A stretch of 30,237 bases of DNA, taken from the IMG/VR virus record IMGVR_UViG_3300030104_007623, positions 1 through 30,237 of that record. One strand, 5' to 3'. The notes below the pieces were generated by a model that was given only the letters and a program-made list of their open reading frames with translations, was not told the DNA's origin and ran no database searches. The stretch is from a virus. Shown in pieces: positions 3,652 through 24,377 of the stretch. Both the position numbers and the translations under genes were made by a program. Each line of letters begins with the position of its first letter. Positions within the stretch are counted from its first letter, which is position 1.

Positions 3652-3741
3652 AAATTTAAGTTTTAATAAGGTTAATAATTGCAATTACTCTTATTAAAAA
3701 AAACGTATTAAAGATAAAACTAGTGTATGGTTATAAATATA

Positions 3742-9183: not shown

Positions 9184-9831
9184 TTATTTATAAGAAACTA
9201 AGTTATAGGGATCATCATCGTCTACAGGATTTTCACCATCTAAACCTAACTCTCGTAATCTTTGTAGATGATAGTCATCTAGTTGCATGTCTACGGCTTC
9301 TGTAGTTTTGGTAACTGATAGATTGTCTTCTAGTTTTTTAATATCTCTTTCAGTAAATACTTCTCCTATAAACAAAAAATAACAATTATAGCACAAAAAT
9401 TCTATGTTATTTAGATTATAATTTAATTTATTTTTATCCTTGAAATGTAATATTAAAGGTACTTTATGATCTGTTACTCTATGTTCTTGAAACCCACAAT
9501 TACCACAACATTCTTCTAAATGTCCCTCAGTAATTAACCTATATTTTAATTTTTTAGGTGAAAATGAAGCAGCATCAATTTTCCCCTCTATTATGTCTAA
9601 TAATGCAGGTTCTTTTCCTGTTGATTTAAGAAATTTGGGTATACCTTTACCACTTTGATTTTTATGTATTTCAAATAGAGTTTTACCCGTTTCTTCATCC
9701 ACATACAGCTTCATATAACGCTTCAAATGGTGGTATGAGCAATTTAGGTATCTAGCAGCAGCCTTAACTGATTTTGTTTTATTCATCGCTGCTAGACACA
9801 TATCTTTTGATATGGGTTTGGCTGCGGGCAT
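9184..9831 (-). CDS. HNH-like protein with N-terminal HTH, active site altered
   Basis: A 215-residue protein. Residues 21-42 (SVKAAARYLNCSYHHLKRYM) look like a helix-turn-helix of the Fis/homeodomain-like kind. Residues 108-151 form an HNH-type zinc module: Cys109/Cys112, then LILHFKDKNKLNYNL, Asn142 and Cys147-x2-Cys150. In canonical HNH enzymes the strand reads LHH and the second CxxC is followed by His. Here these are LHF (Phe130) and Tyr151, so nuclease activity may be lost and a DNA-binding role retained. The C-terminal 50 residues are acidic (VDDDDPYNL). It overlaps the DksA-like gene by one base. HNH homing-type nuclease origin is likely (inference). Confidence 0.65.
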   Translation of the reverse strand: MPAAKPISKDMCLAAMNKTKSVKAAARYLNCSYHHLKRYMKLYVDEETGKTLFEIHKNQSGKGIPKFLKSTGKEPALLDIIEGKIDAASFSPKKLKYRLITEGHLEECCGNCGFQEHRVTDHKVPLILHFKDKNKLNYNLNNIEFLCYNCYFLFIGEVFTERDIKKLEDNLSVTKTTEAVDMQLDDYHLQRLRELGLDGENPVDDDDPYNLVSYK

Positions 9832-10109
9832 TAATCTGTGAGTTTATCTAAACCTTTGTTTTTTTTAGATTTTTCTTTTTCTAATTTTTCAAATGCCTCA
9901 AATTGTTCTTGGGTTAAAACTTCTAGATCTACCCATGTATGGTCTCCAGATCCTCTCATTACAGTCACTCCCCTTTTAGGAGATTCAGTAGAACAATTCA
10001 CACAGGTTTTGGTTCCTGGGAGTATTTCTAATCTTTTAGGTGGGATTTTAATATTACATTTAATACAATTCATTATTTCTTCAGTGTCAACTGGGGGATA
10101 CATATTCAT
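9831..10109 (-). CDS. DksA/TraR-type C4 zinc-finger protein
   Basis: A 92-residue protein with Cys15-x2-Cys18 and Cys36-x2-Cys39 spaced as in the DksA/TraR zinc finger. The intervening IPPKRLEILPGTKTC follows the family pattern I...RL...P....C. The long DksA coiled coil is absent, as in short phage TraR-like proteins. TraR and DksA bind the RNA polymerase secondary channel and alter transcription; this protein may do the same to host polymerase or may just be a zinc ribbon. The C-terminal tail is charged and helical (EQFEAFEKLEKEKSKK). Confidence 0.65.
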   Translation of the reverse strand: MNMYPPVDTEEIMNCIKCNIKIPPKRLEILPGTKTCVNCSTESPKRGVTVMRGSGDHTWVDLEVLTQEQFEAFEKLEKEKSKKNKGLDKLTD

Positions 10110-10119
10110 TGGGAATTTT

Positions 10120-10515
10120 TTATTTAAATAATTTTAATTTTTTTAGGATGTTGTATAATTGTGTTGTGGTTTTTACTGGGTATTCTTCATTGGTTATGTC
10201 ATCTGTGATTCTATAGTCAAATTTGTTTGGGTTTTCTACTTCATACACCCACCAAAAAATTACTCTACATACAGATGCCCCATATAATTCTTCTAATAAA
10301 TTTTCAAAAATCTGATAATGGGGGTCTTCATAACCAAATAAATCAATCCCATATTCCTCATGAACTCTTCTTGATCTTGAATTTATTTCTTTCATCATCT
10401 CTATAATGTCAATAAATCTTCTTTTTCTTTTTTTATCTATAGATTTACTACTTTCAGAAACCTTAAGATTTGACCCTGTTATAGATAATAATGATTTTTT
10501 TATTCTATCTTTCAT
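10120..10515 (-). CDS. Hypothetical protein (131 aa)
   Basis: The basic N-terminus (residues 1-35) precedes a helical core with the distinctive stretch EEYGIDLFGYEDPHYQIFEN and an aromatic strand VIFWWVYEVENP. The tail is helical and basic. I do not recognise a named family, though the stretch looks like a conserved phage protein. Its ATG overlaps the TGA of the 53-residue gene upstream (ATGA). Confidence 0.6.
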   Translation of the reverse strand: MKDRIKKSLLSITGSNLKVSESSKSIDKKRKRRFIDIIEMMKEINSRSRRVHEEYGIDLFGYEDPHYQIFENLLEELYGASVCRVIFWWVYEVENPNKFDYRITDDITNEEYPVKTTTQLYNILKKLKLFK

Positions 10516-10688: not shown

Positions 10689-10720
10689 TAAATATAATGA
10701 AAATATCTTGGGGGATCAAA
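10689..10720 (-). promoter_or_regulatory. Promoter candidate, TTTG-N20-TATATTTA
   Basis: TTTG (10720-10717) overlaps the stop codon of the last glycan-cassette gene. After exactly 20 bases TATATTTA lies at 10696-10689. It probably restarts transcription after the cassette. Confidence 0.6.
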
Positions 10721-11483
10721 TGTACTTCAAATTATTTTCGGGTTTATGTTTAATATAACTCCCCCATTTATATTTTGCGTATTCATGCCCATTTTGTTCT
10801 GCTTGTTGTCTTTTTTCTCCATTTGTAGATGCTGATGCGAAATGGTAAAAATGGCAATTATAACTCCTAACCATACTAAGTCCAGATAGTTGACATTTTA
10901 AAAAGAAATCCCAATCAGCGACCATTCCTAATTCATAATTTTCATCCCACCCTCCTACTTTAAGATAATCTAATTTTGACATAAAGATAGGAAGTGTTGA
11001 ACCTGTTTTATCAATAGGAAGTCCTCTCTGTGATTCTTCATAACCCCAATAACTCTCTAAATTAAATGTTTTAGGATCACGTCCACAATCTTTAATATGA
11101 AATTGTTTAAACATACTAGGTATAGGTTCAATTTGATTTGGGGATATAACTGATCTTGGGGTATAAACTTTTTCTAATTGAATATCCCACTCTAAAGGAA
11201 ATACATTATCATCATTTACAATTAATATTTTATCATGACGTGCATTCATTACTCCTAAGTTAGTTCCTCGACACAGGCCTACATTCTCTTCTAAGTTTAA
11301 AATATCTATATTATCTTTCCATTTTTCAAGAACTTCTTTATTTAAGTCATAAAAACCATCTACCACTACTATAATTTGATTTTCATCATCTTGACCTACA
11401 ATTGCTGATTCTAAACATAAGTCTAAATATTCTGGGGATTTATATGTTGGTATTATTACTGATATCATAGGTGGGTTTTCCAT
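10716..11483 (-). CDS. Family 2 glycosyltransferase
   Basis: A 255-residue GT-A enzyme. It starts with the nucleotide-sugar-binding strand ISVIIPTYKSPEYLDLCLES, followed by IIVVVDGF, ENVGLCRGTNLGV and the metal-binding NDDN (residues 90-93). Later GGWDENYELGMVADWDFFLK supplies the acceptor/catalytic Asp region typical of GT2. There is no membrane helix, so it is probably cytoplasmic. Start: MENPPM at 11483 overlaps the previous gene by 19 bases; the internal Met6 would shorten the overlap. It is the last gene of the glycan cassette. Sugar donor and acceptor cannot be told from sequence. Confidence 0.88.
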   Translation of the reverse strand: MENPPMISVIIPTYKSPEYLDLCLESAIVGQDDENQIIVVVDGFYDLNKEVLEKWKDNIDILNLEENVGLCRGTNLGVMNARHDKILIVNDDNVFPLEWDIQLEKVYTPRSVISPNQIEPIPSMFKQFHIKDCGRDPKTFNLESYWGYEESQRGLPIDKTGSTLPIFMSKLDYLKVGGWDENYELGMVADWDFFLKCQLSGLSMVRSYNCHFYHFASASTNGEKRQQAEQNGHEYAKYKWGSYIKHKPENNLKYI

Positions 11484-12187
11484 TCATTTATTAATTCTTC
11501 TTGTTTAGTTTTATATAGTGGAGCTAACCATGCTGTTTCACCATGAGTTGAATAAGTATTTAGAGGACACATTAAGGCTTTCCCATTATCTCTTAACTCT
11601 AAAAACATTTTAAAATCATTAGGGTGGGTTCCAGACGTCCATTTTCTTAATATTTCTTCATCTTCTTTTAGATTTTTTACTGTAGAGGCAAAGGTCATTG
11701 TAGTACTATTAAACATCCCAAATAATTCAGTTTCACCTCTATATATTCTAGTTAAATATCCCCCAGTTTCATCTACTTCAGGATTACCACCTTGTTGTGG
11801 AGGAATAAATTTATCAGGATGAAGATATAAAGTAACATAAGGAGCTCCTAATTTAATCCCCTCTTCTATGATTTTTTGTGAATTTGGGAGATGGATATAA
11901 TCATTTTCTATAAAATAAACTATATCATCATCATTATAAGTAAGTGCTTCATCTAATGCTAAATTAAAAGTACCAGCCCCATGTCCTACTGAAGCGTAAT
12001 AAATATGATCTCTTGATTTATATTTTTGAATCATATCATTTGTTTCTTCAGATATATTATCTGCTATGATAGACCAATCAGCATCTGTAAATACTTTAGT
12101 AGCATTTGCTAAACACACCTCATTATTAATATATTCAGGTTTTACTTTATTATAACCCGCATCTGATATTCTATATATTACTTTCAT
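11465..12187 (-). CDS. GT-A-type glycosyltransferase-like protein
   Basis: A 240-residue protein. It lacks the classic N-terminal GT2 strand but has an internal GT-A-like core: HGAGTFNLALDEAL, then DIVYFIENDYIHL with a DxD-like END (residues 94-96), and later GGYLTRIYRGETELFG. The pattern suits a family of short viral glycosyltransferases; the exact GT family is not clear. Start and end overlap neighbours by 4 and 19 bases. Function within the same glycan pathway is inferred from position. Confidence 0.65.
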   Translation of the reverse strand: MKVIYRISDAGYNKVKPEYINNEVCLANATKVFTDADWSIIADNISEETNDMIQKYKSRDHIYYASVGHGAGTFNLALDEALTYNDDDIVYFIENDYIHLPNSQKIIEEGIKLGAPYVTLYLHPDKFIPPQQGGNPEVDETGGYLTRIYRGETELFGMFNSTTMTFASTVKNLKEDEEILRKWTSGTHPNDFKMFLELRDNGKALMCPLNTYSTHGETAWLAPLYKTKQEELINEWKTHL

Positions 12188-12771
12188 ATACGCTCGATTA
12201 TGGTAAAACCATTGTTATTGGTAAATCTTTCTTTTAATTTCCAAATATTCTTATTTTCATCTAAAAACTCAGTAACGGCATCCCATAGTCCTTTACCCCA
12301 ATCTAATTCTCCCAAAAACCCATTTTCTGAAGTTGTTGGTTCACTTTTATGTTCATATGATGTTGTATCGTGAAAACATATATACTTTCTTGCTTTAGAA
12401 GAATGTCTTTTCAATTCAGCTTTTAATTGATTATAGTGGTGCCAGGTATCAATAAACAACAAATCTGTTTCTTCAATATCAATTTCTAAAACATTAGCTT
12501 CTACAAATTTAAATTTTAACCCATAAGCATTAGCTGTATCTTCTACTTCTTTAATATTACCCCCCCATCTTGAAGGGTTATATAAATCATAGGATATTAA
12601 TCCATTTTTAGGGGCTGCTGCTAACCAACCCCATGTTGATAAAACACTCCTTACCCCCATTTCGGTTATATGATCACACTCTTGACCATATTTTATTATA
12701 GTTGGGAGATGTTCATTAATGTCTGAGGGGGTTTGATATAATTGGTTAATTTTATTTTCTAAGTCTATCAT
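12184..12771 (-). CDS. SAM-dependent methyltransferase-like protein
   Basis: A 195-residue Rossmann-like protein with a modified SAM motif I at residues 35-48 (ITEMGVRSVLSTWG, Glu37 and Gly39). YDLYNPS follows, and then the strand TDLLFIDTWHHYNQLKAEL (Asp108) and CFHDT (134-136). This set is typical of Methyltransf_24/CmcI-like enzymes that methylate sugars or small acceptors. A glycan O-methylation step is likely. It lies between glycosyltransferase genes and overlaps the downstream gene by four bases. Confidence 0.75.
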   Translation of the reverse strand: MIDLENKINQLYQTPSDINEHLPTIIKYGQECDHITEMGVRSVLSTWGWLAAAPKNGLISYDLYNPSRWGGNIKEVEDTANAYGLKFKFVEANVLEIDIEETDLLFIDTWHHYNQLKAELKRHSSKARKYICFHDTTSYEHKSEPTTSENGFLGELDWGKGLWDAVTEFLDENKNIWKLKERFTNNNGFTIIERI

Positions 12772-12783
12772 ACTAAGTTATTT

Positions 12784-13593
12784 TTATAGGTTTGGGAAAA
12801 GTAAATCTAAACATTCTTTTCCAAATTTTTCTTTTATAGTTTGAATACGTTCTTTATTTTTAGGTGTTCTCTCCATTTTTTTTCTATGTAACTCCATTGT
12901 TCTTTCTTTTTGGAAAAACCATTTATTATATTCTTCATGGTTTGGGTTATCAAAAGTGTATTGGGATATATCTAAGGCATGTCCCGGGTTTAATTTTATT
13001 GTATCATACCCCAAAGATTGGTAATGCCTCCCTATTTTATCTCCAATAAATTGATGAGGCCATTCCTTCATAGTTTGATGCCATAAACTAAACTTATCTA
13101 ATCTACACCCTGCATAGAAAATAGTACTGTAATATTCTTGATTATTTAATGTTTTTCTATTTTTGAAATTTTGATCTTGTATTGTTTGATTCCCAAACCA
13201 TCCAGGTTTTCTTCTCCCCAATAAACCCAAAGAACCCAAGTTTGGATATTTTTTATAAAGCTCTAAACATTCATTAAACCAATTAGGGTTGGTGGGAATC
13301 ATCCAATGATCATTATCTAAAAGAAGTATATAATCAAAACTATCTTCATTAAAGTAATTTGTTAGTAAAGTCCAGGCCCCACCAACTCTTAAATTCTCCT
13401 CAGGAAATATCAACCCTAAATCATATTTTTCTTGATTTTCTTCTAACCATTCTCTTGTTCCATCTGTTGAACCATTATCACAAACTATAATTTGTGAATT
13501 TTTAGGTTTTATCTTGGAGATTGATATGATGTTTCCCTGAGTGTATTCTTTTCTTTGATATGAGACTATATATATTAGTAATTTAGGATTCAT
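12784..13593 (-). CDS. Family 2 glycosyltransferase (rhamnosyltransferase-like)
   Basis: A 269-residue protein with canonical GT2 features: LLIYIVSYQRKEYTQGNI, then IIVCDNGSTDGTREWL (DNGSTDGT 39-46), the loop ENLRVGGAW and the DxD motif LLLDNDH (Asp93, Asp95). The C-terminal region has an aromatic, basic helix (EEYNKWFFQKERTMELHRKK). It probably extends a glycan from a nucleotide-sugar in the cytoplasm. It overlaps the sulfotransferase-like gene upstream by four bases, consistent with one operon. Confidence 0.88.
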   Translation of the reverse strand: MNPKLLIYIVSYQRKEYTQGNIISISKIKPKNSQIIVCDNGSTDGTREWLEENQEKYDLGLIFPEENLRVGGAWTLLTNYFNEDSFDYILLLDNDHWMIPTNPNWFNECLELYKKYPNLGSLGLLGRRKPGWFGNQTIQDQNFKNRKTLNNQEYYSTIFYAGCRLDKFSLWHQTMKEWPHQFIGDKIGRHYQSLGYDTIKLNPGHALDISQYTFDNPNHEEYNKWFFQKERTMELHRKKMERTPKNKERIQTIKEKFGKECLDLLFPNL

Positions 13594-14141
13594 AGGTTAT
13601 AATTAGTTTTGTATAGGTTATGATGAATTAAATTAGTGGTTTCAATTAATTGTTCATTTGTTAATGGATTTGAAATTATATCACATATATCTTCATACCT
13701 AATAATCTCACAATTTTCTTGAGCCCAATCCCATGTTTTATCAATAACAGTATTCCATTGAGTACAAGCTTCTTGGAGATTTATTCTATATTCCCCTCTT
13801 GTTTGACTATGTCCCCATACTTTATTTATAATACTACTAACTACATTTCTTCCATCTCGAATAATATAATAAATTTTAACATTTGGAAAAAATTCTTTTA
13901 TCCACTTTAAAAACTCTATATTAATTTCTTCATTTAAAGTATGTTTTTCAAATTTATTAATTAAACCACTTTCTAATTTTTCATCTTTATATTTATTCCA
14001 TTTTTGTAATTCTTGGTTATATTTAAAACAAGCTATTGTGTGTTTGTTTTCTAATGTAAAATCAATATGGAGTTGTTCTCCTATCCTTTTGGATAACATT
14101 TTAGTACCTGATCTTTCACATCCTGTTATTAACTGTTCCAT
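13590..14141 (-). CDS. Sulfotransferase-like protein (copy 1)
   Basis: A 183-residue P-loop protein with both PAPS-binding signatures. The 5'-phosphosulfate loop is ITGCERSGTKML (residues 5-16). The 3'-phosphate motif is IYYIIRDGRNVVSS (90-103), with the conserved Arg95 and Ser102/103. It is shorter than cellular sulfotransferases (about 250-350 residues), lacking most of the C-terminal cap, but keeps the core fold elements. It would transfer sulfate from PAPS to a sugar hydroxyl. A second sulfotransferase-like gene lies two genes upstream. It overlaps the PIG-L gene by 13 bases. Confidence 0.8.
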   Translation of the reverse strand: MEQLITGCERSGTKMLSKRIGEQLHIDFTLENKHTIACFKYNQELQKWNKYKDEKLESGLINKFEKHTLNEEINIEFLKWIKEFFPNVKIYYIIRDGRNVVSSIINKVWGHSQTRGEYRINLQEACTQWNTVIDKTWDWAQENCEIIRYEDICDIISNPLTNEQLIETTNLIHHNLYKTNYNL

Positions 14142-14695
14142 ATAATTACTTCTAATTTTTCTTTATTATCTATCCATTTTCTGTTTTGAAAGTATTCTCT
14201 ATGATATTGAGATTCATAACAATCCATAGCTATTTCCTTTTTAAAAATATCAGTAGCTGTTAGTTTAACAGTTAATCTTAAATCACTTTTCCCTACAATG
14301 TTCCAGGGGTGACAATAACCTAAAATACATCTATCTTTAAAAGCTCTAACACATTCATTATAAATTGTTAAATGATCTTGGTGAACATCAAAACTTGATG
14401 GGCATATTATAATATCAGGATTAATTTCTTTTTTCAATTCAATTAGTTTATCTAAAACTCTTTGTCTATCAAATTCACGAACTTTAAAATCCAAAATATC
14501 TAAATTAGGTTTATCACAGAGAGAATTACAAGCTAGGGTAAATTCTTCTTTTAATTCTTCTCTACCACAATAACTAAAACATATTATATTAATTTGATTA
14601 TTATGGGATAACTTATGTATCAACCCCCCACAACCTAGGGTTTCATCGTCTGTGTGTGGGGATAAAATTAAAATATTTTTATTTGTTATATTCAT
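14129..14695 (-). CDS. PIG-L/LmbE-family zinc deacetylase
   Basis: A 188-residue protein with the metal-binding signature SPHTDDETLGCGG (His14, Asp16-Asp17-Glu18) and the second His motif VHQDH (His104, His107). Family members remove N-acetyl groups from GlcNAc-containing glycolipids, mycothiol precursors or antibiotics. Here it probably deacetylates a GlcNAc-like residue in the phage glycan, creating a free amine that a sulfotransferase could then modify, as in heparan-type chains (inference). It lies between the two sulfotransferase-like genes, which supports this link. Confidence 0.85.
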   Translation of the reverse strand: MNITNKNILILSPHTDDETLGCGGLIHKLSHNNQINIICFSYCGREELKEEFTLACNSLCDKPNLDILDFKVREFDRQRVLDKLIELKKEINPDIIICPSSFDVHQDHLTIYNECVRAFKDRCILGYCHPWNIVGKSDLRLTVKLTATDIFKKEIAMDCYESQYHREYFQNRKWIDNKEKLEVIIWNS

Positions 14696-14699
14696 TCGT

Positions 14700-15230
14700 T
14701 TACTTTTTAGCTCCTATTGGTCTTAATTTATAAATTCCTCCCTGTGTTTGGGGTTTTTCTTGGGAAATGTTTACAAATTTAGGGTATTCACTCCATTTAT
14801 GTTTAATATTTAATTCAAATAATTTAGAAATAGTTTGTTGAATTTGGTCAGGGGTTTTTAAAAGATCTTCATAAATTATAGTATAGTCAATTAAACTTCC
14901 ATATTTTTTACGGTGAGATAAACAAGTATCGTATCTATTTCCACTAACATAACCATTATCGGATTTTAAAACATCTTCTCTATTCCTTAAAACATCTATT
15001 ATTATAATTTCTTTGAACATTTCTAATTGTTGGGTTATAAGTGGATTAGGAAGTTCTCCTGAAAATAAAGACTGGAATCTTTTACCTACATCATATTCTG
15101 AGTTAATGAAGTCTTTGGGGGTAATTTCTTGGTAGTTATAAACATTGAGACCCTCAAAGGCATTAAATAATCTTCTAACCAAGGTTGTACCTGATTTAGC
15201 ACATCCTGTTATATAAATTTTCTTATTCAT
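14700..15230 (-). CDS. Sulfotransferase-like protein (copy 2)
   Basis: A 176-residue protein with ITGCAKSGTTLVRRLF (P-loop, residues 7-22) and, at 76-90, IIIIDVLRNREDVLKS, which carries the Arg and Ser of the 3'-phosphate-binding motif. It differs strongly from copy 1 outside these motifs, so the two are not a recent duplication. Asn83 and Glu85 replace the usual Asp-Gly residues of the RDGR motif. Probably sulfates a different position or a different glycan. Intergenic distances of three to four bases on either side place it firmly in the cassette. Confidence 0.78.
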   Translation of the reverse strand: MNKKIYITGCAKSGTTLVRRLFNAFEGLNVYNYQEITPKDFINSEYDVGKRFQSLFSGELPNPLITQQLEMFKEIIIIDVLRNREDVLKSDNGYVSGNRYDTCLSHRKKYGSLIDYTIIYEDLLKTPDQIQQTISKLFELNIKHKWSEYPKFVNISQEKPQTQGGIYKLRPIGAKK

Positions 15231-15233
15231 AAT

Positions 15234-15854
15234 TTATAATTTTTCATAAAATTTATTTTGTTTTTCTTGTCTATCTATTGTTTTAGGGTGATATAAACAA
15301 TATTCTTCATCATGAGGTAATTGAGAAATTGTTGTATGGGCTTCTAATACTTCATGAACTTTATTTTTCCATTTTATTTTACCATTATTTTTGTAAATTC
15401 TCCATTGAAGATCAGGAAAATTAACCCATCCTTTTTCATTAACTCTCCATCTCCATTTATTAATGTGTTCTTGAGTTAATCCTTCTACAGTATTAATTCT
15501 TGGAACTAAAAAAACATCTACACTAGAATTTACCTCTAATATACTAGATAAATTTTCTAACATTGTAGGAGTAACTATTTCATCAGCATCAATCTGAAAA
15601 ATATAATCTCCAGTACACATATTAGTTAATTTGTTTTTCCACTCCCCAAAATTATTTTTAAAAGGTAATCTATTAAGAACCCCTAATCGTTTTTCAACAG
15701 AAAGTAAATAATTCCAAACTTCTTCTGTACCATTAGTATGATCAAATAATACTACTATTTCATCCTCTACACGTTTATTCTCAATTAAAAAATCTAATAA
15801 ACGTTGGATTTCTAAAATTTCATTACAAACCGTAATTGCATAACTTATTTTCAT
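15234..15854 (-). CDS. Family 2 glycosyltransferase (WaaE-like)
   Basis: A 206-residue GT-A protein with MKISYAITVCNEILEIQRLL, then DEIVVLFDHTNGT, the donor loop NNFGEWKNKLTNMCTGDY and the DxD motif QIDADEIV (Asp89, Asp91). The later stretch WRIYKNNGKIKWKNKVHE is typical of the small WaaE/KdtX-like GT2 enzymes that act on lipopolysaccharide core or protein glycans. The 30-base gap to the large transferase upstream is AT-rich with no clear promoter. Confidence 0.87.
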   Translation of the reverse strand: MKISYAITVCNEILEIQRLLDFLIENKRVEDEIVVLFDHTNGTEEVWNYLLSVEKRLGVLNRLPFKNNFGEWKNKLTNMCTGDYIFQIDADEIVTPTMLENLSSILEVNSSVDVFLVPRINTVEGLTQEHINKWRWRVNEKGWVNFPDLQWRIYKNNGKIKWKNKVHEVLEAHTTISQLPHDEEYCLYHPKTIDRQEKQNKFYEKL

Positions 15855-15884
15855 ATGGGAAATGTATGAAAAAAATTTAAATAA

Positions 15885-17666
15885 TCAAAATTCTTTTTTA
15901 AAATTGGGGTGAAGATGTTTGTATTCAAGTTTAACATCTTGAGATACTTTTCGTAAAAATAAAGACGGGTAGGTATCTTTTTGTTTTAAGATAATTTCAA
16001 CTTCAGTAAATTCATTAGGATGTGCATTTGGATTTTCCCGAAATTTTTCAACATCTTCCATAGTTTTGAATTTTGATATATCTACCCCAAACCAAGTAGG
16101 TTTTAAATAGTCAATAATGTTTTCCTCAATTTTTGGATCATAATGTCTTATAACATTATAATAATACCATTCATCAGCAACATTAAAATTTTTCCATAAG
16201 TTTTCATGGTTATATTTATTTGCTATTTCAGCATGTTCTCTATTTAGGATCATCCACTGAGAATTTCTCATCATATTTCCCCAAGTTATTCCTAATTCTT
16301 TTGAAGGGTCACCATTTCTACAAATTTGAGTATAAGCTGCATCTTTTATTTTTATATGCTTTGGATCTTTAGGAGTTGGGGTTAATTTGGTATATAAGAA
16401 GCTTTTTCCTGCTGTTTCCTGTTGGTTAAATAGTATGTCATATATTACTTTATAGAAATGTAAAGGGATACAACTTTCAGAAACTAAAACAAATCTTTTA
16501 TTAGTTGGGTCTTTTAAAGCATTTTTAATTAAAGCATTGGTTGCCGTTAATAAATTACTATCCCCCCATTCTGTATGAATATGTTCTGGGATTTGGTGGT
16601 CAATTAAAAATTGTTGGTTTAATTTATCTCTTTCTTTAGTGTGGGCATATACATTACACTTTCCATTCCCATCAGATAAAAAGTCATACCACAATTGGGG
16701 TTGTTTTAAATTATTTCTAGTTAAAAATAAAAAGGCTATTTTATCTTCATTATTTTTTTCGAAAGTAATTGTTTTATCAAATTTAACATCTATAAAGGGG
16801 GAAAAATTACTTTTGGAATGTTCTATTTGTTGAATCTTATTTTTAACAATACCAAGTATCCTTGGTTTGTGAATATTGAAATTATTTTTTTTACAATATT
16901 CTAAAAATAATTCTTTTCTTTTAGAAGAATTTTCTAATTTGGAAAATTCTCGAGAATTTGTTTTAGAATTAGTTATATCATTATTAGGCCAATACTTTTC
17001 AGAAATATCTTTATATTGTAATTGAAAAGATTCTACTGTAGTATTTTTTATTTTCTCTTTTGTTTTTAATTTTCCTGGGGGGTTTATACATTGAATATTA
17101 TCTATTATCGCAAATTTTTTAAGGTTTTTAATATCTTCAACCCCATTAGCTACCATGTAAATGTAATCAACCCCAAAACTTACTAGTTTAGGATCATATA
17201 TTTCCATAAACTTATTAATAGAATCTTTAGTCATCAAACAACTATTGTTTTCTACAAAATTGGTATATCTTAAAAAATAATTGGGGTTTGAGGTATTAAT
17301 ATCCCACCCTATTTCACTCCCTAAGGCAAAAGATGGTTGGCATATTTTTAAATTACATTCTAAAGATAACTTAAACATTTTGTTTATATCTTCTGTGGTA
17401 ATTATAATATCATCATCTAAAAAGAAAATTCTATCATACTCTTGTATTTTATCATAATTGGTGGTGTATAGGTGGTGGAAATTTTGCCACTTATCACCTT
17501 TTCTTTTTTCTATGTAATCTACTTTTTTAGAATATTTTATAAAATTTTTTTCTTCACTTCCATAATATATAACAAAAACATCATATTCACGGTCTTTACC
17601 TAACCAAGTATTATCAAAATTAGTATTGTCCCCTACTGAGGAAAATATTAGGTTTTTCATTTTCAT
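15885..17666 (-). CDS. Two-domain glycosyltransferase: DUF707-like plus GT14/Core-2-like
   Basis: A 593-residue protein. The N-terminal domain (about residues 1-220) has a GT-A-like core with IQEYDRIFFLDDDIIIT (Asp84-Asp86) and VSFGVDYIYMVAN, resembling DUF707. A charged linker follows. The C-terminal domain, roughly residues 300-590, matches the Core-2/I-branching family (GT14): DKIAFLFLTRNN, KCNVYAHTKERD, RFVLVSESCIPLHFYKVIYD, NSQWMILNREHAEIA and ADEWYYYNVI. GT14 enzymes add branching GlcNAc or xylose residues. A fused pair could make two successive linkages. It overlaps the HAD-like gene by four bases. Domain boundaries are estimated by eye. Confidence 0.78.
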   Translation of the reverse strand: MKMKNLIFSSVGDNTNFDNTWLGKDREYDVFVIYYGSEEKNFIKYSKKVDYIEKRKGDKWQNFHHLYTTNYDKIQEYDRIFFLDDDIIITTEDINKMFKLSLECNLKICQPSFALGSEIGWDINTSNPNYFLRYTNFVENNSCLMTKDSINKFMEIYDPKLVSFGVDYIYMVANGVEDIKNLKKFAIIDNIQCINPPGKLKTKEKIKNTTVESFQLQYKDISEKYWPNNDITNSKTNSREFSKLENSSKRKELFLEYCKKNNFNIHKPRILGIVKNKIQQIEHSKSNFSPFIDVKFDKTITFEKNNEDKIAFLFLTRNNLKQPQLWYDFLSDGNGKCNVYAHTKERDKLNQQFLIDHQIPEHIHTEWGDSNLLTATNALIKNALKDPTNKRFVLVSESCIPLHFYKVIYDILFNQQETAGKSFLYTKLTPTPKDPKHIKIKDAAYTQICRNGDPSKELGITWGNMMRNSQWMILNREHAEIANKYNHENLWKNFNVADEWYYYNVIRHYDPKIEENIIDYLKPTWFGVDISKFKTMEDVEKFRENPNAHPNEFTEVEIILKQKDTYPSLFLRKVSQDVKLEYKHLHPNFKKEF

Positions 17667-17968
17667 ATTTCTTCTATTATTGTGATTTCACCCCCAACAT
17701 TTAAATCTAATAAACTTTCTTTAGATTCACAAGTTATGTCATTAAAACTACAACCCCATTCCATTAATTTTTTAAACATAAAATCTTCCCAATCTATCTC
17801 TCCATTTAACTCCTTAGGAATCCAGTAAACAATTTCATCACCATTATCATACATTTTATTTATTTTTTCAATGCAGGGGTATTTTGGTTTAATCATATTA
17901 TGGTTAAAGTTACTTTCTAAATCTGATAGAATAAAAGTTATACTAGTTATATTTATAAATACTTTCAC
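17663..17968 (-). CDS. HAD-like protein lacking catalytic Asp residues
   Basis: A 101-residue protein whose middle (KPKYPCIEKINKMYDNGDEI, then YWIPKELNGEIDWEDFMFKK) follows the pattern of short HAD-family phosphatases of capsule clusters: P....I..IN.LYD.G..I......DW...T...L...G. The N-terminal strand that should carry DxDGT reads FINITSITFIL, and the usual Asp nucleophile and general acid are absent. It may be a degenerate, regulatory or scaffold paralogue; the resemblance is from spacing only. It sits between the GT32 and the large two-domain transferase genes. Confidence 0.5.
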   Translation of the reverse strand: MKVFINITSITFILSDLESNFNHNMIKPKYPCIEKINKMYDNGDEIVYWIPKELNGEIDWEDFMFKKLMEWGCSFNDITCESKESLLDLNVGGEITIIEEI

Positions 17969-17979
17969 TAAATATTGGG

Positions 17980-18714
17980 TTAGATATTATTATAAATATC
18001 CCTTTTACTCCATAAAGTGTCATAATAGGTTTTTGAATTCATTGGTATTTTACTATCAGGATATAGTAAATTTGATAATTCTTTACTTTTTGTTTTTATT
18101 AATTTTTTTTTGGTTTTAATACTACTCAAATGGTAATCTCCATCTTGAAATAAAGATATTCTATAATCTAGATAATAATTTTTAATTTTGTGGATATTAT
18201 GTAAAATATCTCCAAATAAAATAGGTCCTGTGGGATGGAGTGGAGATTCACCGTAAAATCGATTTTTGACATTATTAACTATTTGTGTTATACTAACACT
18301 ATAGATTAATAAATAAGGGACCGTAGCCATAAATGATATCTGTATTCCACTTCTTTTACATTCTCGCCTATATCTATCCTGAACTAATATTAAATTATCT
18401 TTTTTATTATCAAGTATTTCTGAGAGAGGAATAAGATATTCATGCAATATATCACCATACACCCCCCCTCTTTTATAAAGAATACAATATCTAAATAAAT
18501 CAGCTTTATATGCTCCTGGTTTTAAGGAATCAAAAGCCATAAGTACATCTTGGTGAAAATTATTTTTTATAAATTCTCTACATCTAGTATTACTGTAATA
18601 TTCAATTTTATATTCTGGGTTGTTTTCTAATGTTTTATTAAAAAGGTTTTGAATCTCTTTAGGTAAATCTTTTTCTTCCCATTTTCCTGTTTTATATAAA
18701 ATTTTAGGTATCAT
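17980..18714 (-). CDS. GT32-like glycosyltransferase, altered DxD
   Basis: A 244-residue protein with the GT32/OCH1-like pattern: MIPKILYKTGKW, then GAYKADLFRYCILYKRGGVY, followed by Gly87-Asp88-Ile89-Leu90. In family members the last step is DxD (for example YLDID). Here the second Asp is Leu90, so metal binding may be weaker or use another residue. The remainder includes HPTGPILFGD (a typical GT32 acceptor-loop motif). It lies directly downstream of the intact GT32 gene with a four-base overlap. Confidence 0.78.
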   Translation of the reverse strand: MIPKILYKTGKWEEKDLPKEIQNLFNKTLENNPEYKIEYYSNTRCREFIKNNFHQDVLMAFDSLKPGAYKADLFRYCILYKRGGVYGDILHEYLIPLSEILDNKKDNLILVQDRYRRECKRSGIQISFMATVPYLLIYSVSITQIVNNVKNRFYGESPLHPTGPILFGDILHNIHKIKNYYLDYRISLFQDGDYHLSSIKTKKKLIKTKSKELSNLLYPDSKIPMNSKTYYDTLWSKRDIYNNI

Positions 18715-19508
18715 AAAAAACGTCTTGCTATCTTGTTGTAAGTAGTATTTTTTGTTTTAATATCTTCTATAGTTAGATTATTTAAATAGCCCCATGATAC
18801 AGATTCCCACAAATGGTGACAATATGCTTTTTTTAAATCATGTTCTTCTTCAAATAACATTTTTATACCCACTTTATCCCAAATTGGAAAATGAAAACTT
18901 TTAAAATTTTCAATGTATAACTTATCTGGGTGTTGTGATGATAAATATAAAGGTAAATATACTGAGTGTTCATCCCAATAAGCATAATTTTCACCTCCTC
19001 CTTTATTTAAATTTTCACTTAAAGGTTTAGCTCTAAAAGTAGAATAACTATTATACCAAATATCTAAAAATTCACTCTCAGAAGTAGACATTATAACAGC
19101 ATTACATAACCCTTGTATTTGTTTATAATTGGGGGAAATTTGTTGACCTATAACAAATTTATTATTTAATAGTGGGGTAAAAGGTTTGACACAAATAGTA
19201 TCTATATCCATGTAAATACCTCCTTTATCTTTTAAAGCCTCTAGTCTAATTATATCTGCTTTATGGGCAACATGATATAAAGGATTACTAAATATCTCTG
19301 TTGGGGGATTTACCTTAACAAGTTCTAATTTATCTTGTATCTTTCTAAACCACTCTGTTTCAGGAAGGTATTGATAATAAAAATAAACTTTATCTGGATT
19401 GTTTACTTCTATAGCCGATTTAAGGGCTAAATAGTGAGATAAATTAAAAGGTTTACCCCCAAAATCTTTACTTAACCCAAATATAAAATGAAATATATTT
19501 GGTATCAT
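18711..19508 (-). CDS. GT32-like glycosyltransferase with intact DxD
   Basis: A 265-residue protein with IPNIFHFIFG at the N-terminus and VAHKADIIRLEALKDKGG, then IYMDIDTICVKPF (Asp101-x-Asp103). These are diagnostic for the DxD sugar-binding region (Gly_transf_sug) of alpha-galactosyl/mannosyl transferases. Other conserved parts include IGQQISPNYKQIQGLCNAVI and a C-terminal HHLWESVSW. It likely adds a hexose to a glycan in the cytoplasm. It is eight bases downstream of the zinc-ribbon gene. Confidence 0.85.
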   Translation of the reverse strand: MIPNIFHFIFGLSKDFGGKPFNLSHYLALKSAIEVNNPDKVYFYYQYLPETEWFRKIQDKLELVKVNPPTEIFSNPLYHVAHKADIIRLEALKDKGGIYMDIDTICVKPFTPLLNNKFVIGQQISPNYKQIQGLCNAVIMSTSESEFLDIWYNSYSTFRAKPLSENLNKGGGENYAYWDEHSVYLPLYLSSQHPDKLYIENFKSFHFPIWDKVGIKMLFEEEHDLKKAYCHHLWESVSWGYLNNLTIEDIKTKNTTYNKIARRFL

Positions 19509-19516
19509 ACTTATAA

Positions 19517-19978
19517 TTATTCAGGGAGAACCCCTATGTATGAAAGAGCTTCCATATAATCTTTTTCCACAAATTGTTTCATTGTAGACATATCCATTCT
19601 ATGTTCATAATACTCTCCTTTTTTACCAGGTTTAGGATATTTTTCTTTTTCTTCTTCTTTTATCTCCACGGATTTAACAGCAGCCCATTTCCAATTATTA
19701 ACGGTGGAGCCATTAGCAAATACCATCCCCTGAGATGGGAGATTAATTGTTGAAGGGAACCATATTTGACCTTCTTCATCCTCAAATTTTAAATCTTTAT
19801 ATAATTCTGGGAGAAATTCCATTTGTTCTTTTAAAATTAATTCTCCTTCTTTCATTAAGGAATTAGATTGGAACCCACACCCGTAACAGAAATAATTACT
19901 TATTTCTTGGTTTACTTCAGTTACATAACAGGCATCTGATCCACATCGAGTACATATTTCTAGTTTATCTGAATTCAT
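19517..19978 (-). CDS. Zinc-ribbon protein (153 aa)
   Basis: The N-terminus has Cys9-x2-Cys12 and Cys31-x2-Cys34 (CTRCGSDAC ... CYGCGFQ) as in a zinc ribbon. Residues 40-150 are acidic and aromatic (LPELYKDLKFEDEEGQIWFP). The overall arrangement recalls an uncharacterised marine-phage protein, but no named function is known to me. It is placed within the glycan cassette between GT4 and GT32 genes. A structural or regulatory role is possible; nothing identifies it as an enzyme. Confidence 0.6.
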   Translation of the reverse strand: MNSDKLEICTRCGSDACYVTEVNQEISNYFCYGCGFQSNSLMKEGELILKEQMEFLPELYKDLKFEDEEGQIWFPSTINLPSQGMVFANGSTVNNWKWAAVKSVEIKEEEKEKYPKPGKKGEYYEHRMDMSTMKQFVEKDYMEALSYIGVLPE

Positions 19979-20005
19979 AATTTTATTATTTGGATTAATT
20001 CTATA

Positions 20006-21328
20006 TTATACTTTTTGAAGTTTGGGTAAGTTTAATTTAGGAAGATCCTGTGGTTTGGTTTTCAGGTTAGAATTAAGTTTAGGAAGTTGTAATTTTACCT
20101 CTTTTGGGAATGATGGAATATTTTCAGTAAAAATTAAATCTAATTTTTCTTTCATTTTATCAAAACTAAAATTTTCTTTACAATAGTTTCCTTGTTGTTT
20201 TGCTTTATGGATATACTTTTTATAGTTCTTATAAGTATCTTTTAAAGATTTACCTAAAGACATAGTATCTACATCAAACCACTTTGCCCCCTCTACAAAC
20301 CAATTATTTCTTGCACTTGGGTGCATGTCTCCCAAAGTACCTGGGAGTAGTATACTCATATCAGGTTTTAAGAAATCTGTATGACCTGACCAACCTGTGG
20401 TAATAATTGGTTTTTTGGTTTGGGTAAATTCAAGTAATGGTCTTCCAAAACCTTCCCCCTTGGTTAAACTAACCATGGCTTTAACCTTATTATGGTTATA
20501 TAACTCATTTATTTCTTGATCAGAAAAATCACCATGGAGTAAGTAAACATTAGGACATTTACCTTTTATGGTGTTTTTTACATCTTGTATCTTCTTCAAA
20601 GTTCTTTCTCTATCCATATAAGACACAGTCCCATGGCTAGTTTTTAAAATCAAAGCAGGTTGTTGTTGTTTATTTTTAAAGGTCTCACAAAATGATTTAA
20701 TAAGTAACCCCACATTTTTCCTGTCATGTCCAAAATCCCCTTGTATCCAGTGTCCTACAAATAAATAACAAAATGATTCTTTAATATTAGATAAATCTAA
20801 AGTAGATTTAACAGGTTTATAGGTATCTAAATTTAACCCTTCAAACAATACCTCTGTTTTGGTATTCAATTCAATATTACTTACAACTTGTTTAGTATTT
20901 TTATCAGCTTTTTGAAATTTACAATCTTTTAATACTCTTATAGTATGTTCTGAAGATCCTACTACTAAGTTCATCCTGTTACACCCCTCAATCCATTCAG
21001 CTGGGCATAAAGTGGTTTCTATTCCAGCTGTCATTCCAATGTTATATTTTCCTTGGGGCATGAACTCATTTGGAATTGTAAGTTGTATCCAAATTTCAGG
21101 TTGTGGATATTTTTGGTTAGGTTGGGGATAGAATAGATGTTTATTTAGAAATTTCCACTCTGAATGATCTTCAATAAATCCCCAAGGGGTGTTACCCCAT
21201 CTTTGGGGTAATATTTTTACATCATACTTATCTAACTCTATAATAGCTTTTGCTACATCTCTACCTCTTGAACCATATCCTGAGTATGTGTCTATAGGGC
21301 AACTTAATATTAATGTTGGTTTGCTCAT
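20006..21328 (-). CDS. Family 4 (GT-B) glycosyltransferase with Pro-Lys-Leu tail
   Basis: A 440-residue GT-B protein. The N-terminal domain begins LILSCPIDTYSGYGSRGRDVA. The C-terminal nucleotide-sugar domain has FVGHWIQGDFGHDRKNVGLL, then VSLTKGEGFGRPLLEF, the E-x7-E-like signature of GT4 (Glu in KGEGFG and in LLEF). Residues about 405-440 contain a repeated LPKL(N) motif (QLPKLNSNL, DLPKLNLPKLQKV), a short Pro/Lys/Leu tail that could bind a membrane or a partner. It begins one base after the stop of the neighbouring GT4 gene. No Shine-Dalgarno sequence is visible before its ATG. Confidence 0.85.
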   Translation of the reverse strand: MSKPTLILSCPIDTYSGYGSRGRDVAKAIIELDKYDVKILPQRWGNTPWGFIEDHSEWKFLNKHLFYPQPNQKYPQPEIWIQLTIPNEFMPQGKYNIGMTAGIETTLCPAEWIEGCNRMNLVVGSSEHTIRVLKDCKFQKADKNTKQVVSNIELNTKTEVLFEGLNLDTYKPVKSTLDLSNIKESFCYLFVGHWIQGDFGHDRKNVGLLIKSFCETFKNKQQQPALILKTSHGTVSYMDRERTLKKIQDVKNTIKGKCPNVYLLHGDFSDQEINELYNHNKVKAMVSLTKGEGFGRPLLEFTQTKKPIITTGWSGHTDFLKPDMSILLPGTLGDMHPSARNNWFVEGAKWFDVDTMSLGKSLKDTYKNYKKYIHKAKQQGNYCKENFSFDKMKEKLDLIFTENIPSFPKEVKLQLPKLNSNLKTKPQDLPKLNLPKLQKV

Positions 21329-21329
21329 T

Positions 21330-22769
21330 TTAATAAACTAAATTATGTGTTTGTACTTTTTTAATATCTATATTAGTGTTAATTAATTCATATTTTTCTC
21401 TTGGTTCCCAAGTATCAAATAATTCATCTAAAGCTTCTATTACTCTTTTCCCTTGATGGGATGATGTAAACCCAGCTTCATCACTTAAAGCCCATTCTCT
21501 ACCCTTCAAACCTACTTCATCCCTCTTTTGAGGAGACATATCATATATTTCTCTGATTCTTTTAGCTGCATCTTCTGCTTTACATCTATCATCAAAAATG
21601 TAAGGAGTAACTGGAGATCCCTGAATTGACCTATTTGTGGGGTAAACTGGAAAGGCCCATTCCCCATGGTTTTTATATTTTCCTGTATGGTTTGATGGTA
21701 ATTCTGGGGTTGGTTCAAACCATTTTCCATTTTCATCTTCAAATCTCATTTGATCCTGCATTCCACCTGTAACATTAGCTATAATTGGGGTTCCAGCTAA
21801 CATTGCTTCTGTCAATGTTAACCCCCATCCTTCATTTGAAGTTAGTAGAATTTGGGCATCTGCTAAGTTATACAACCTATTTAAATCTCCAACAGAAAGC
21901 TTATTTGTTGAAAAAACAATGGCTTTTGGATAATCTTTGCTAAATAATAATTCCTCAACTGTAATTAAGTCTGTACCAGCTTCATGAGATACTTCAGTAT
22001 GAAGTACAAATCTACACTTATCCGCTTTTTCTTTAGGTAAAGAATCCAAGAAGATTTTAAAAGCAAACATTGTATCTGGGATTTGTTTTCTTCTAATATT
22101 CCTAGAATTAAAAAATAACATAAAATCTACTTCTTCATCTTTAAATACCTTAGATTTAAAATTTTCTAATTCTTCTGAGTGTGGTGGTATGGGGAAATAT
22201 TTATTGTGGTTTAATCCATGGGGCACATATTTTATAACTTTATCCTCAGCTTTATCCCCCAAAACAATCTTATTAATATTTACGGTTTGTTTTGAAATTC
22301 CCAATAGGGCATCACATGACTCATAAAACGCTTTATTATATAAGGGGGCAGGGTAATCATCCCAAATATTAAGGTAAACAATTGGAATTTGTTTCCTAAT
22401 TTCTCCCTCCATTTCAAATAACCACATAAAATATCTAGGATCTGTAATTATAAAAATAGCATCTGGTTTTTCTAGTTTAATAAGTTGTCTTACTAAATCA
22501 GGATTTCCATAACCATCAGTAGGATATAGAAGGACACTAGAATCGGTAATTCCTGATTCTTTATTTGTATCTTGACTTATATCAAATCTTTTACCCTTAT
22601 CTGGGTGTTTAATAGCTCCTGCTATTTGAACCCAATTAAAGTGTTGGCAAGTATGTATAACTATTTCTTTTGCTACAGTGGCTACTCCTGATGGGACTCT
22701 TATATCATCGCATATCAAAAGTATTTTTTTTCTTTCACTAGGTGGAAGATATTTAAAACTTTTATCCAT
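21330..22769 (-). CDS. Family 4 (GT-B) glycosyltransferase
   Basis: A 479-residue GT-B protein: the N-terminal half has KILLICDDIRVPSGVATVAK, the C-terminal half SNEGWGLTLTEAMLAGTPII with the GT4 donor-binding Glu residues, and ANVTGG. It is expected to use a retaining mechanism with a nucleotide sugar. It is the first gene of the glycan cassette, starting 12 bases after the ribbon-helix-helix regulator gene (an A-rich leader with no Shine-Dalgarno), so the regulator may influence the cassette (inference). The C-terminal region beyond residue 420 is helical and charged. Confidence 0.87.
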   Translation of the reverse strand: MDKSFKYLPPSERKKILLICDDIRVPSGVATVAKEIVIHTCQHFNWVQIAGAIKHPDKGKRFDISQDTNKESGITDSSVLLYPTDGYGNPDLVRQLIKLEKPDAIFIITDPRYFMWLFEMEGEIRKQIPIVYLNIWDDYPAPLYNKAFYESCDALLGISKQTVNINKIVLGDKAEDKVIKYVPHGLNHNKYFPIPPHSEELENFKSKVFKDEEVDFMLFFNSRNIRRKQIPDTMFAFKIFLDSLPKEKADKCRFVLHTEVSHEAGTDLITVEELLFSKDYPKAIVFSTNKLSVGDLNRLYNLADAQILLTSNEGWGLTLTEAMLAGTPIIANVTGGMQDQMRFEDENGKWFEPTPELPSNHTGKYKNHGEWAFPVYPTNRSIQGSPVTPYIFDDRCKAEDAAKRIREIYDMSPQKRDEVGLKGREWALSDEAGFTSSHQGKRVIEALDELFDTWEPREKYELINTNIDIKKVQTHNLVY

Positions 22770-22780
22770 TATTTTTTTAT

Positions 22781-22969
22781 TTATAAATCTAGGTTTGTTT
22801 GATTATTAATTTGTTTTCTAAATTCCTCATCTGTAAGATACAAATAAATTGCACGATCGGCAAGTTTTTGGAAAGAAAATTTTCTTTTAACACATTCAAT
22901 TTTGAAATTTTCAAATAAATCACTTTTAACTTTTACACTAGTTAAGGTCATTTTTTTCTTTTCAGTCAT
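22781..22969 (-). CDS. Ribbon-helix-helix DNA-binding protein
   Basis: A 62-residue protein with the Arc/MetJ-like RHH layout: a beta strand TLTSVKVKSDLF that would insert in the DNA major groove, helix FENFKIECVKRK, the turn FS and helix FQKLADRAIYLYL. Two such chains normally form the DNA-binding dimer. Its position just before the glycan cassette and after the replication block suggests local transcription control (inference). Possible promoter upstream: TTTG, 18 bases, TATTATTA at 22985-23014. Confidence 0.75.
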   Translation of the reverse strand: MTEKKKMTLTSVKVKSDLFENFKIECVKRKFSFQKLADRAIYLYLTDEEFRKQINNQTNLDL

Positions 22970-22984
22970 TTTTATTTATTTTGT

Positions 22985-23014
22985 TAATAATATATAAATA
23001 TATGCAGATTCAAA
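22985..23014 (-). promoter_or_regulatory. Possible second-type promoter, TTTG-N18-TATTATTA
   Basis: TTTG (23014-23011), 18 bases, TATTATTA (22992-22985). The same pair with the same spacing occurs at 6031-6060 before the LamG gene. The region is very AT-rich, so the match may be chance. Confidence 0.3.
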
Positions 23015-23957
23015 GGGATACACCCACATTGCATAAACTTTTATCATTTTTATAAGGACAGAAACCACAATTCCACTTAGATGGGTTTGGTAACATTTCC
23101 TTAGTTGTATATTCGTTTTGGGTAAAACATTCACCCATAAATTCTTCTAACGCTTTAGTTGCTCTACTTATTTTAATTTTACCCGATGGGGGAGAGTACA
23201 TTTGGAATCGTTTTTGTGGGTAATCCCCACCAGTATAAATTTTTCTTCTTGTTATAAAAAACTCAACATCTATATTTTCCTTAGGCACATCAAACTGTTC
23301 CGCAAAGAATTTTTTGTATAAAATAAGTTGGAATTGTTTATCTTCATCTTTTTTGACATAATCTAATTTCCAACCATTAGTAGAAGTTTTAATATCTATT
23401 ATTTTGAATTTATTGGTTCCTTCATGATACATTACAATATCAAGATAACCTATAAACAAAACGTTAGGATTATAATGTAAAGGAGGTATTGTGATGGGGG
23501 TTTCTATTCCTACTAAATGCCAACCACGTTTTGTAAAATATTTACCTCTATGTTTTTTTAAATAATTTAATATTTTAACTCCATCTTGATAAAATTCACT
23601 TAATTCACCTGGGTTTGAAAAATGTTGATTATTATTTTTATTATATTCTTCTTTATAATGTTCCCTAAGTTGGTCCTTTAATATCTCTAAAATATCTTCT
23701 CTATCAGCTGCTGCAGCACTTTTTTCATACATTACCTTAATATAATGTTGAAATGCTTCATGTAATGCTTTTCCAAATACAGTATGGATACTAGGTGTGT
23801 AAACTTTATAACCATCCCTATACTGCAACGCCCATTGTTTAGGGCATTTTTTCCACATTGAATATTGGGAATATGAGATATTCTTTTGAAAAGCATAATT
23901 AACTTCTCTTTTGGGAGTTTGTTGTATCTCCTTTACTATCGTAGGAATTTTAGGCAT
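23010..23957 (-). CDS. PD-(D/E)XK nuclease with probable 4Fe-4S cluster (AddB/Cas4-like)
   Basis: A 315-residue RecB-fold nuclease. Motifs in order: SYSQYSMWKKCPKQWAL (with Cys38), GKALHEAF (His66), GYLDIVMYHEG (Asp173), FKIIDIKTS (Asp188-x-Lys190) and QFQLILYKKF (Gln-Tyr motif). At the C-terminus CGFCPYKNDKSLC gives Cys297, Cys300 and Cys309. With Cys38 these make the four-cysteine iron-sulfur staple of AddB/Cas4 nucleases. It probably processes DNA ends during recombination or replication. It starts immediately after the DUF1599 gene in the replication block. Confidence 0.88.
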   Translation of the reverse strand: MPKIPTIVKEIQQTPKREVNYAFQKNISYSQYSMWKKCPKQWALQYRDGYKVYTPSIHTVFGKALHEAFQHYIKVMYEKSAAAADREDILEILKDQLREHYKEEYNKNNNQHFSNPGELSEFYQDGVKILNYLKKHRGKYFTKRGWHLVGIETPITIPPLHYNPNVLFIGYLDIVMYHEGTNKFKIIDIKTSTNGWKLDYVKKDEDKQFQLILYKKFFAEQFDVPKENIDVEFFITRRKIYTGGDYPQKRFQMYSPPSGKIKISRATKALEEFMGECFTQNEYTTKEMLPNPSKWNCGFCPYKNDKSLCNVGVSL

Positions 23958-24377
23958 TTATTTTTTCCATTTGTCACGCCCAACTAGTAAACCAATTATA
24001 CCATAATTGGCTACATCTAGAAACGTGTCTTCCATTCCTTCACCTTTAACAAAATTTTTACCATTTACCAATAGATTTCTTAATCTGGATACTTTATCAG
24101 TTAATCTAATTGCTAGTCCAGTTAATGAAAATTTTTTATCATTTTCTTTAGTTAAATCTCCTCCTAATGAAATGTTTTGTAAACCATAGTCCATATGTTT
24201 ACGAGCAAATGTTGTATACATTTCATCTTGAATCTTTAAAAATTCTTTAGCCAATTCAGGATACTCTTCTTCAAAAATATGTTGTATTTCAAGATTTTGT
24301 TGAGATACGGCTTTCCACTTTTCTGCTTTATCAAGTTTTCTTGATTCTACTAAATCTTCAATAAATTGATCTTTCAT
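23958..24377 (-). CDS. DUF1599/Nmad1 family protein (nucleotide-modification associated)
   Basis: A 139-residue helical protein with the family pattern: MYTTFARKHMDYGLQNIS (Lys60, Asp63-Tyr-Gly), then GLAIRLTDKVSRLRNL (Arg91, Asp94, Lys95, Arg98) and MEDTFLDVANYGII (Glu116, Asp117, Asp121). The family is all-helical and MazG-like in its acidic residues, and is reported as associated with phage nucleotide modification systems. It may act on (d)NTPs. A promoter-like motif lies inside the upstream gp62 gene, 79 bases before this start. Confidence 0.78.
   Translation of the reverse strand: MKDQFIEDLVESRKLDKAEKWKAVSQQNLEIQHIFEEEYPELAKEFLKIQDEMYTTFARKHMDYGLQNISLGGDLTKENDKKFSLTGLAIRLTDKVSRLRNLLVNGKNFVKGEGMEDTFLDVANYGIIGLLVGRDKWKK

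Follow-up and report, generated by a model that had tools for sequence, protein, structure and literature searches.

The stretch of DNA analysed here (the window) is a linear virus record of 30,237 bp, IMGVR_UViG_3300030104_007623, whose minus strand holds nearly all of the genes. Between positions 10716 and 22769 it carries a block of glycosyltransferase (GT), sulfotransferase and deacetylase genes, which a preliminary description had read as a phage cassette for a sulfated glycan, packed on one strand with gaps of a few base pairs. Every open reading frame (ORF) of the block does lie on the minus strand, with the widest internal gap reaching about 30 bp. Families were called using Pfam profiles with their curated cut-offs (GT2 23.3, GT32 23, GT4 26.4, PIG-L 28.2 and Sulfotransfer_3 27 bits). 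These searches recover the three GT2, two GT4 (one sub-threshold) and two GT32 genes, the GT14 fusion and the PIG-L gene that had been named from sequence, and the building of a sulfated glycan with a deacetylation step is thus well supported by gene families.

Read along the minus strand, the block opens with two adjoining GT4 genes. The first (21330-22769; PF00534, 44 bits) is syntenic with a gene of Flavobacterium phage vB_FspM_immuto (MW353175-MW353177, hereafter immuto) at 54% identity and is very common, with at least 600 matching stretches among viral contigs; such viral-contig counts derive from short exact patterns and are lower bounds. The second (20006-21328), 55% identical to its immuto counterpart, is GT4-like at 23.4 bits to PF00534. 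Next comes a Zn-ribbon-like protein (19517-19978), recognized by its cysteine pattern and matched, among named phages, in immuto alone. Two GT32-like genes follow (18711-19508 and 17980-18714; PF04488, 46 and 45 bits), the former also found in records G002 and G042. The small gene at 17663-17968 gave no match in the Pfam search and a weak one to phrog_1238 (annotated as phosphoheptose isomerase, E 7e-5); judged by eye, its product is HAD-like and resembles sugar-phosphate enzymes of that kind, with the region of the catalytic DxD motif apparently replaced and no such motif visible. Neither this gene nor the Zn-ribbon-like one had been named in the preliminary description. The gene at 15885-17666 encodes a two-domain glycosyltransferase, for which the proposed GT14 (Branch) part is clear (PF02485, 78.8 bits) but the preceding DUF707-like region remains just below threshold (PF05212, 23.5 bits). 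It was seen in at least four viral loci, one of them a near-identical contig, and has no match among 50,697 named phage records.

Downstream of the GT2 gene at 15234-15854 (PF00535, 42 bits) lie sulfotransferase-like B (14700-15230), a predicted N-deacetylase of the PIG-L family (14129-14695; PF02585, 55.7 bits), sulfotransferase A, the candidate N-sulfotransferase and partner of PIG-L (13590-14141), and a second GT2 gene (12784-13593; PF00535, 58 bits). The block ends with a putative sugar methyltransferase (12184-12771), a putative GT-A glycosyltransferase (11465-12187) and a third GT2 gene (10716-11483; PF00535, 56 bits). For the first two of these, support for the earlier family calls is weaker: the methyltransferase has a weak match to RMNT_CmcI (E 0.007), along with a homologue in island L110 (E 2e-32), and the 11465-12187 product has no Pfam or PHROG match. 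We infer a GT-A fold for the latter from an acidic motif, YFxE[ND]DYxH, which is conserved in seven homologues from seven islands (six besides that of the window). A sequence search of the PDB returned nothing useful for this protein, the GT14 fusion or the methyltransferase. On the right, the block is flanked by two small ORFs and an HNH-type protein, also on the minus strand (9184-10515).

Motifs typical of their families are intact in the deacetylase and in sulfotransferase A, and conserved motifs are also seen in B. Of the two sulfotransferases proposed earlier, A exceeds the cut-off of PF13469 (Sulfotransfer_3) at 46.5 bits, while B falls just under it (25.2 versus 27 bits, E 2e-5); a homologue of B in G003 clears the same cut-off with 33 bits when the pieces of its frame are summed. 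In sulfotransferase A, the P-loop GCERSGT, corresponding to the 5'-phosphosulfate-binding site, and the 3'-phosphate-binding (3'-PB) motif RDGRxVVSS are invariant, and the protein weakly matches tyrosylprotein sulfotransferase (E 4e-4). For B, a homologue of 73% identity retains the P-loop GCAKSGTT together with the motifs LRNxEDVLKS and YE[DN]L, and the first Foldseek match, obtained with a low-confidence model (predicted local distance difference test, pLDDT, 47), is SULT1C3 bound to 3'-phosphoadenosine 5'-phosphate (SULT1C3-PAP; probability 1.00, E 0.006). In PIG-L, HTDDE and HQDH are invariant among phage copies, matching the expected HxDDE and HxDH, which we take to be the metal-site motifs of the family. 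GT14, PIG-L and sulfotransferase A, whose placement the preliminary description had treated as decisive, are all above cut-off. Sulfotransferase A has no match among the 50,697 named phage records, and a DNA-level search of named phages gave none either; distant PIG-L proteins occur in some named phages, including Arthrobacter phages in which a glycosyltransferase is annotated alongside.

We rejected the reading of A and B as two parts of a single split gene, since each has its own P-loop and 3'-PB motif; 35 columns aligned in a profile-profile comparison of the two. The two are also separable, because a homologue of B is present without a detected PIG-L in G003 (locus L004) and the pair of PIG-L and sulfotransferase A is present without a detected homologue of B in G043/G044. 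These distributions suggest that A would act after deacetylation and B independently of it, B being likely an O-sulfotransferase.

The association of PIG-L with sulfotransferase A extends well beyond the window. In a distant phage (G043/G044, locus L094), the genes for PIG-L, sulfotransferase A and GT2 again follow one another in this order, with the same 13-bp overlap between the first two. Identity to the window is 91% for PIG-L, 70% for sulfotransferase A and 63% for the GT2 at 12784-13593, compared with 46-47% for the GT4 proteins, 49% for the core GT2 and 39% for the PDDEXK nuclease. This pattern is consistent with the module having been exchanged among lineages; the high identity of PIG-L could also come from stronger conservation of that one protein. 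Ratios of nonsynonymous to synonymous substitution (dN/dS) against L094, computed with a simple Nei-Gojobori script and affected at this distance by near-saturated silent sites, are 0.08 for PIG-L, 0.28 for sulfotransferase A and 0.24 for this GT2.

Bacteria hold the same arrangement. Scanning genomes with the PIG-L alignment yielded 10 cellular loci, and in five of these (four in Flavobacteriales, one in Bacteroidales) a homologous sulfotransferase is adjacent. When the bacterial sulfotransferase served as the sole query, 13 of the 35 genomes of one Flavobacteriales family carried it, and PIG-L lies directly upstream of this Sulfotransfer_3-type gene in all 13 carriers (L115, L117-L128). A hidden Markov model built from the bacterial PIG-L-adjacent sulfotransferases finds sulfotransferase A at 8e-10 and B at 2e-4, and nothing else encoded in the window comes below 0.3. 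The link between deacetylase and sulfotransferase, which the preliminary description had drawn from their co-occurrence, is strengthened by the order and overlap kept in the distant phage and by the 13 bacterial genomes. Across the phylum the pair's sulfotransferase is rare, since a draw of 396 genomes contains it in 2 at a strict threshold. To our knowledge, the Flavobacteriales gene pair is uncharacterized so far.

Comparison of gene order in related contigs places the block in a variable island at a fixed site. Immuto shares with the window the left core (PDDEXK, small ORF, GT4, GT4, Zn ribbon, GT2) and, on the right, the boundary of small ORFs and HNH; its interior differs. Including immuto, 11 loci span the site, with ORFs of the fetched loci called mechanically. 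Both GT4 genes (always adjoining), the Zn ribbon and the GT2 at 15234-15854 are kept in all 11, a homologue of the terminal GT2 stands at the right end in 9, and the order w10120-w9831-w9184 of the right flank is conserved in relatives, the immuto counterparts of w9831 and w9184 being annotated as DnaK suppressor and HNH endonuclease. In the more distant loci L090 and L094, the Zn ribbon was not detected. Interiors differ among the spanning loci, and island length ranges from 7.2 to 16.0 kb. A Pfam tally over 124 proteins of 14 islands counts 28 GT2, 9 DegT aminotransferases, 5 epimerases and 5 methyltransferases, plus acetyltransferases. Because relatives share site and core and have swapped interiors, the block is, on this sequence comparison, the window's version of a variable glycan island that occupies a fixed site in immuto relatives.

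Sulfation is a minority version of this island. We surveyed 50 records with the core or core relatives, many of them fragments, and found Sulfotransfer_3 in 9 and PIG-L in 6; a Sulfotransfer_4 protein lies within the island of G014, and an APS (adenosine 5'-phosphosulfate) kinase, a possible phage source of 3'-phosphoadenosine 5'-phosphosulfate (PAPS), occurs in one relative only (G025). The view that the block is unusual for a T4-like genome is to be divided: large glycan clusters are known from T4-like cyanophages, pelagimyophages and jumbo phages (PMC3037559, PMC7029224, PMC7824862) and the block is one island allele, but its sulfation content is unusual. The T4-like label itself draws its support from relatives alone, a T4-type portal being present in 6 of 10, immuto among them; in the 30-kb fragment that forms the window, the portal region is out of reach. 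The host is probably a Flavobacterium-like bacterium, given the relationship to immuto and the best PIG-L relatives.

Misassembly was considered and rejected, because an independent contig from another metagenome, G001, matches window positions 11739-18714 with 97.5% identity and 18709-23919 with 98.5%. All shared block genes are open in G001, most with few amino-acid changes, the exception being the core GT2 at 15234-15854 (86%). Compared with L082:8802-9419, this GT2 has 86% identity with dN close to dS, and neighbouring genes mostly have 94-100%; a local recombination patch and diversifying selection are alternative explanations.

We hypothesize, at a probability of roughly 55%, that the block, as an island allele of a T4-related Bacteroidota phage, encodes a cytosolic pathway for a sulfated, possibly N-sulfated oligosaccharide that is most likely attached to virion fibre proteins. 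The enzyme activities, the N-sulfation, the acceptor and the benefit are predictions from the genes described above. Host sugar nucleotides and host PAPS would be the inputs. The constant core of two GT4, one GT2 and usually the terminal GT2 would provide a shared early or first step, and the interchangeable interior genes would complete a phage-specific oligosaccharide, with the interior GT2, GT32 and GT14 proteins of the window extending the chain. PIG-L would take the N-acetyl group off an amino sugar, and the two sulfotransferases would transfer sulfate from PAPS, plausibly to the freed amine in the case of the PIG-L-coupled A and plausibly by O-sulfation in the case of the independent B; the methyltransferase may cap a sugar. 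On a tail fibre or another virion protein, the resulting charged and variable coat could alter adsorption or hide the particle.

Two sets of observations bear on where this glycan would be assembled and placed. A plain Kyte-Doolittle window scan found hydrophobic segments in 6 of 180 island-region ORFs and in none of the window's block, and no Pfam match to an initiating transferase, flippase, polymerase or ligase was found in the block; the lack of membrane segments and of a flippase points to assembly in the cytosol. As for placement, G030 has a Sulfotransfer_3 gene between tail-fibre-like and YadA-head fibre-like genes, near tail sheath genes, and one Sulfotransfer_2 and one Sulfotransfer_4 gene a few kb off, near tail genes. 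In G005, a homologue of this Sulfotransfer_3 gene is one gene away from a YadA/UspA1-repeat gene. Sulfotransferases beside fibre genes favour virion fibres as acceptors, and of the two sites offered by the preliminary description, virion or infected cell, the indirect evidence leans to the virion. Taken as a whole, the G030 locus (L109, 8771-17942) has three sulfotransferase genes, each from another Pfam family, and a gene that by eye looks like GT25, all in the neighbourhood of tail sheath and fibre genes.

Several points weigh against this hypothesis. The fibre-adjacent sulfotransferases of the relatives are different proteins from those of the window. Many cytosolic glycosyltransferases use host lipid-linked glycans, and a lack of membrane proteins is compatible with action on the host surface. 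Genes for PAPS or sugar nucleotides may lie elsewhere in the genome, of which the window is a 30-kb fragment. The predicted models of both sulfotransferases are of low confidence (pLDDT 41 and 47), having been built from only 3-4 homologues, so that fold matches count as weak support, and the phage proteins are short, at 176-183 amino acids versus about 325 in bacterial homologues. Finally, the 13 bacterial genomes represent one family and are not independent events.

Remodelling of the infected host's surface polysaccharide (lipopolysaccharide (LPS), capsule or Bacteroidota O-glycan) through exported lipid-linked intermediates, for instance for superinfection exclusion, is a serious rival, to which we assign a distinctly smaller chance. 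Clusters of cyanophages, pelagimyophages and jumbo phages are usually interpreted in this way (PMC7029224, PMC7824862); there is a resemblance between the interior enzymes and O-antigen genes, and the bacterial loci of the pair hold GT-like, formyltransferase and flippase-like genes (the GT-like and flippase-like ones read from N-termini). The block itself, however, has no match to the initiating, flipping, polymerizing or ligating functions that such a route would use, and the fibre-adjacent sulfotransferase genes of G030 and G005 favour the virion.

A glycan on phage DNA bases that blocks restriction, comparable to T4 glucosylation or to the multi-sugar DNA glycans reported by Pyle et al. 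2024 (as cited in PMC12619734), is unlikely. Such an acceptor would suit the position of the core GT4 genes downstream of replication genes and a DUF1599 'nucleotide modification associated' gene at 23958-24377, and phage systems in which GTs and sulfotransferases glycosylate and sulfate nucleotides have been mentioned (PMC10829341). Counting against it, no thymidylate synthase or hydroxymethylase of that type was found in G009 (160.5 kb), RM378 and Mel-JY01, all of which have the core GT4; 17 records had no Tet/JBP match in a search run without a positive control, and DNA modification would not normally call for a large repertoire of interchangeable glycans. That the genes are passengers with no present role, either 'stuffer' DNA as raised for cyanophage LPS clusters (PMC3037559) or recent host genes, is very improbable: high interior turnover and the degenerate look of the HAD-like gene would agree with it, but motifs are intact, dN/dS against L094 is 0.08-0.28 for the three genes given above, the order and overlap of the pair persist in a distant phage and the whole lineage retains the site of the island.

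Known systems resemble the proposed virion-glycan pathway in part. Immuto shares the site, the left core and the right-hand small ORFs and HNH, but its interior consists of WecE-type aminotransferases, an epimerase, a methyltransferase, a 'pilin glycosylation' protein and other glycosyltransferases, and its genome has no Sulfotransfer_3 or PIG-L match. Cyanophages P-SSM2, S-SSM7 and S-SM2 likewise have a large glycan cluster of unproven function in a T4-like phage (PMC3037559), at another site and in other hosts; this comparison follows the published description. Sulfotransferases go unmentioned both there and in the jumbo-phage survey (PMC7824862). The host recognition cluster of pelagimyophages is also a variable multi-glycosyltransferase island of T4-like marine phages, but it lies in a structural region with tail fibres, and no sulfotransferase is mentioned (PMC7029224). 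Giant viruses (Megavirinae), which are eukaryotic viruses, are mentioned as having glycan pathways with predicted sulfotransferases (PMC11625862), a likeness at the level of description. Phage Sulfotransfer_3 proteins are already known, with a role called unclear (PMC10580990). As far as our searches show, what is new here is the fixed-site core-and-cassette layout in immuto-like phages, together with a PIG-L/sulfotransferase module common to them and to Flavobacteriales.

By analogy, the coupling of deacetylation to sulfation recalls the N-deacetylase/N-sulfotransferase (NDST), which is one bifunctional animal protein, whereas the window has separate genes and a deacetylase of the PIG-L family. 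Tentatively, PIG-L and its partner might be a split prokaryotic counterpart of NDST that makes N-sulfated amino sugars in Bacteroidota polysaccharides, a pair that phages would have captured for an N-sulfated virion coat; we regard this extension as doubtful. For glycosylation of mycobacteriophage virions we know of few glycosyltransferases and of no reported sulfation. The likeness there is that virion proteins are glycosylated by phage-encoded enzymes (Freeman et al. 2023, as related in PMC12619734).

With a fixed site, a constant core and exchangeable finishing enzymes, a phage with many sugar genes becomes a testable system, for which a cultured relative exists in immuto on Flavobacterium sp. 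LMO8. The PIG-L coupling kept in phages and Flavobacteriales also yields a specific substrate hypothesis for phage sulfotransferases. Should N-sulfation be confirmed, the two enzymes would be candidates for a bacterial-type set with which to produce N-sulfated glycans; in work on heparin biosynthesis, expressing active NDST in bacteria has been described as a bottleneck (PMC13353177, PMC11069525).

Outside the island, the window encodes a Laminin_G_3 (concanavalin-like) protein downstream of it (4882-6027), a possible fibre or glycan-binding protein, and a homologue of PrsW-family intramembrane proteases (2866-3684) with homologues in relatives. A DUF2061 predicted membrane protein (24789-25040) is well above its Pfam cut-off. 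A phage GroEL and GroES pair (27952-29944) is found also in immuto and several relatives, and SET-domain proteins, of the protein lysine methyltransferase family, occur near groEL both in the window (27196-27621) and in the near relative L112 (9341-9670).

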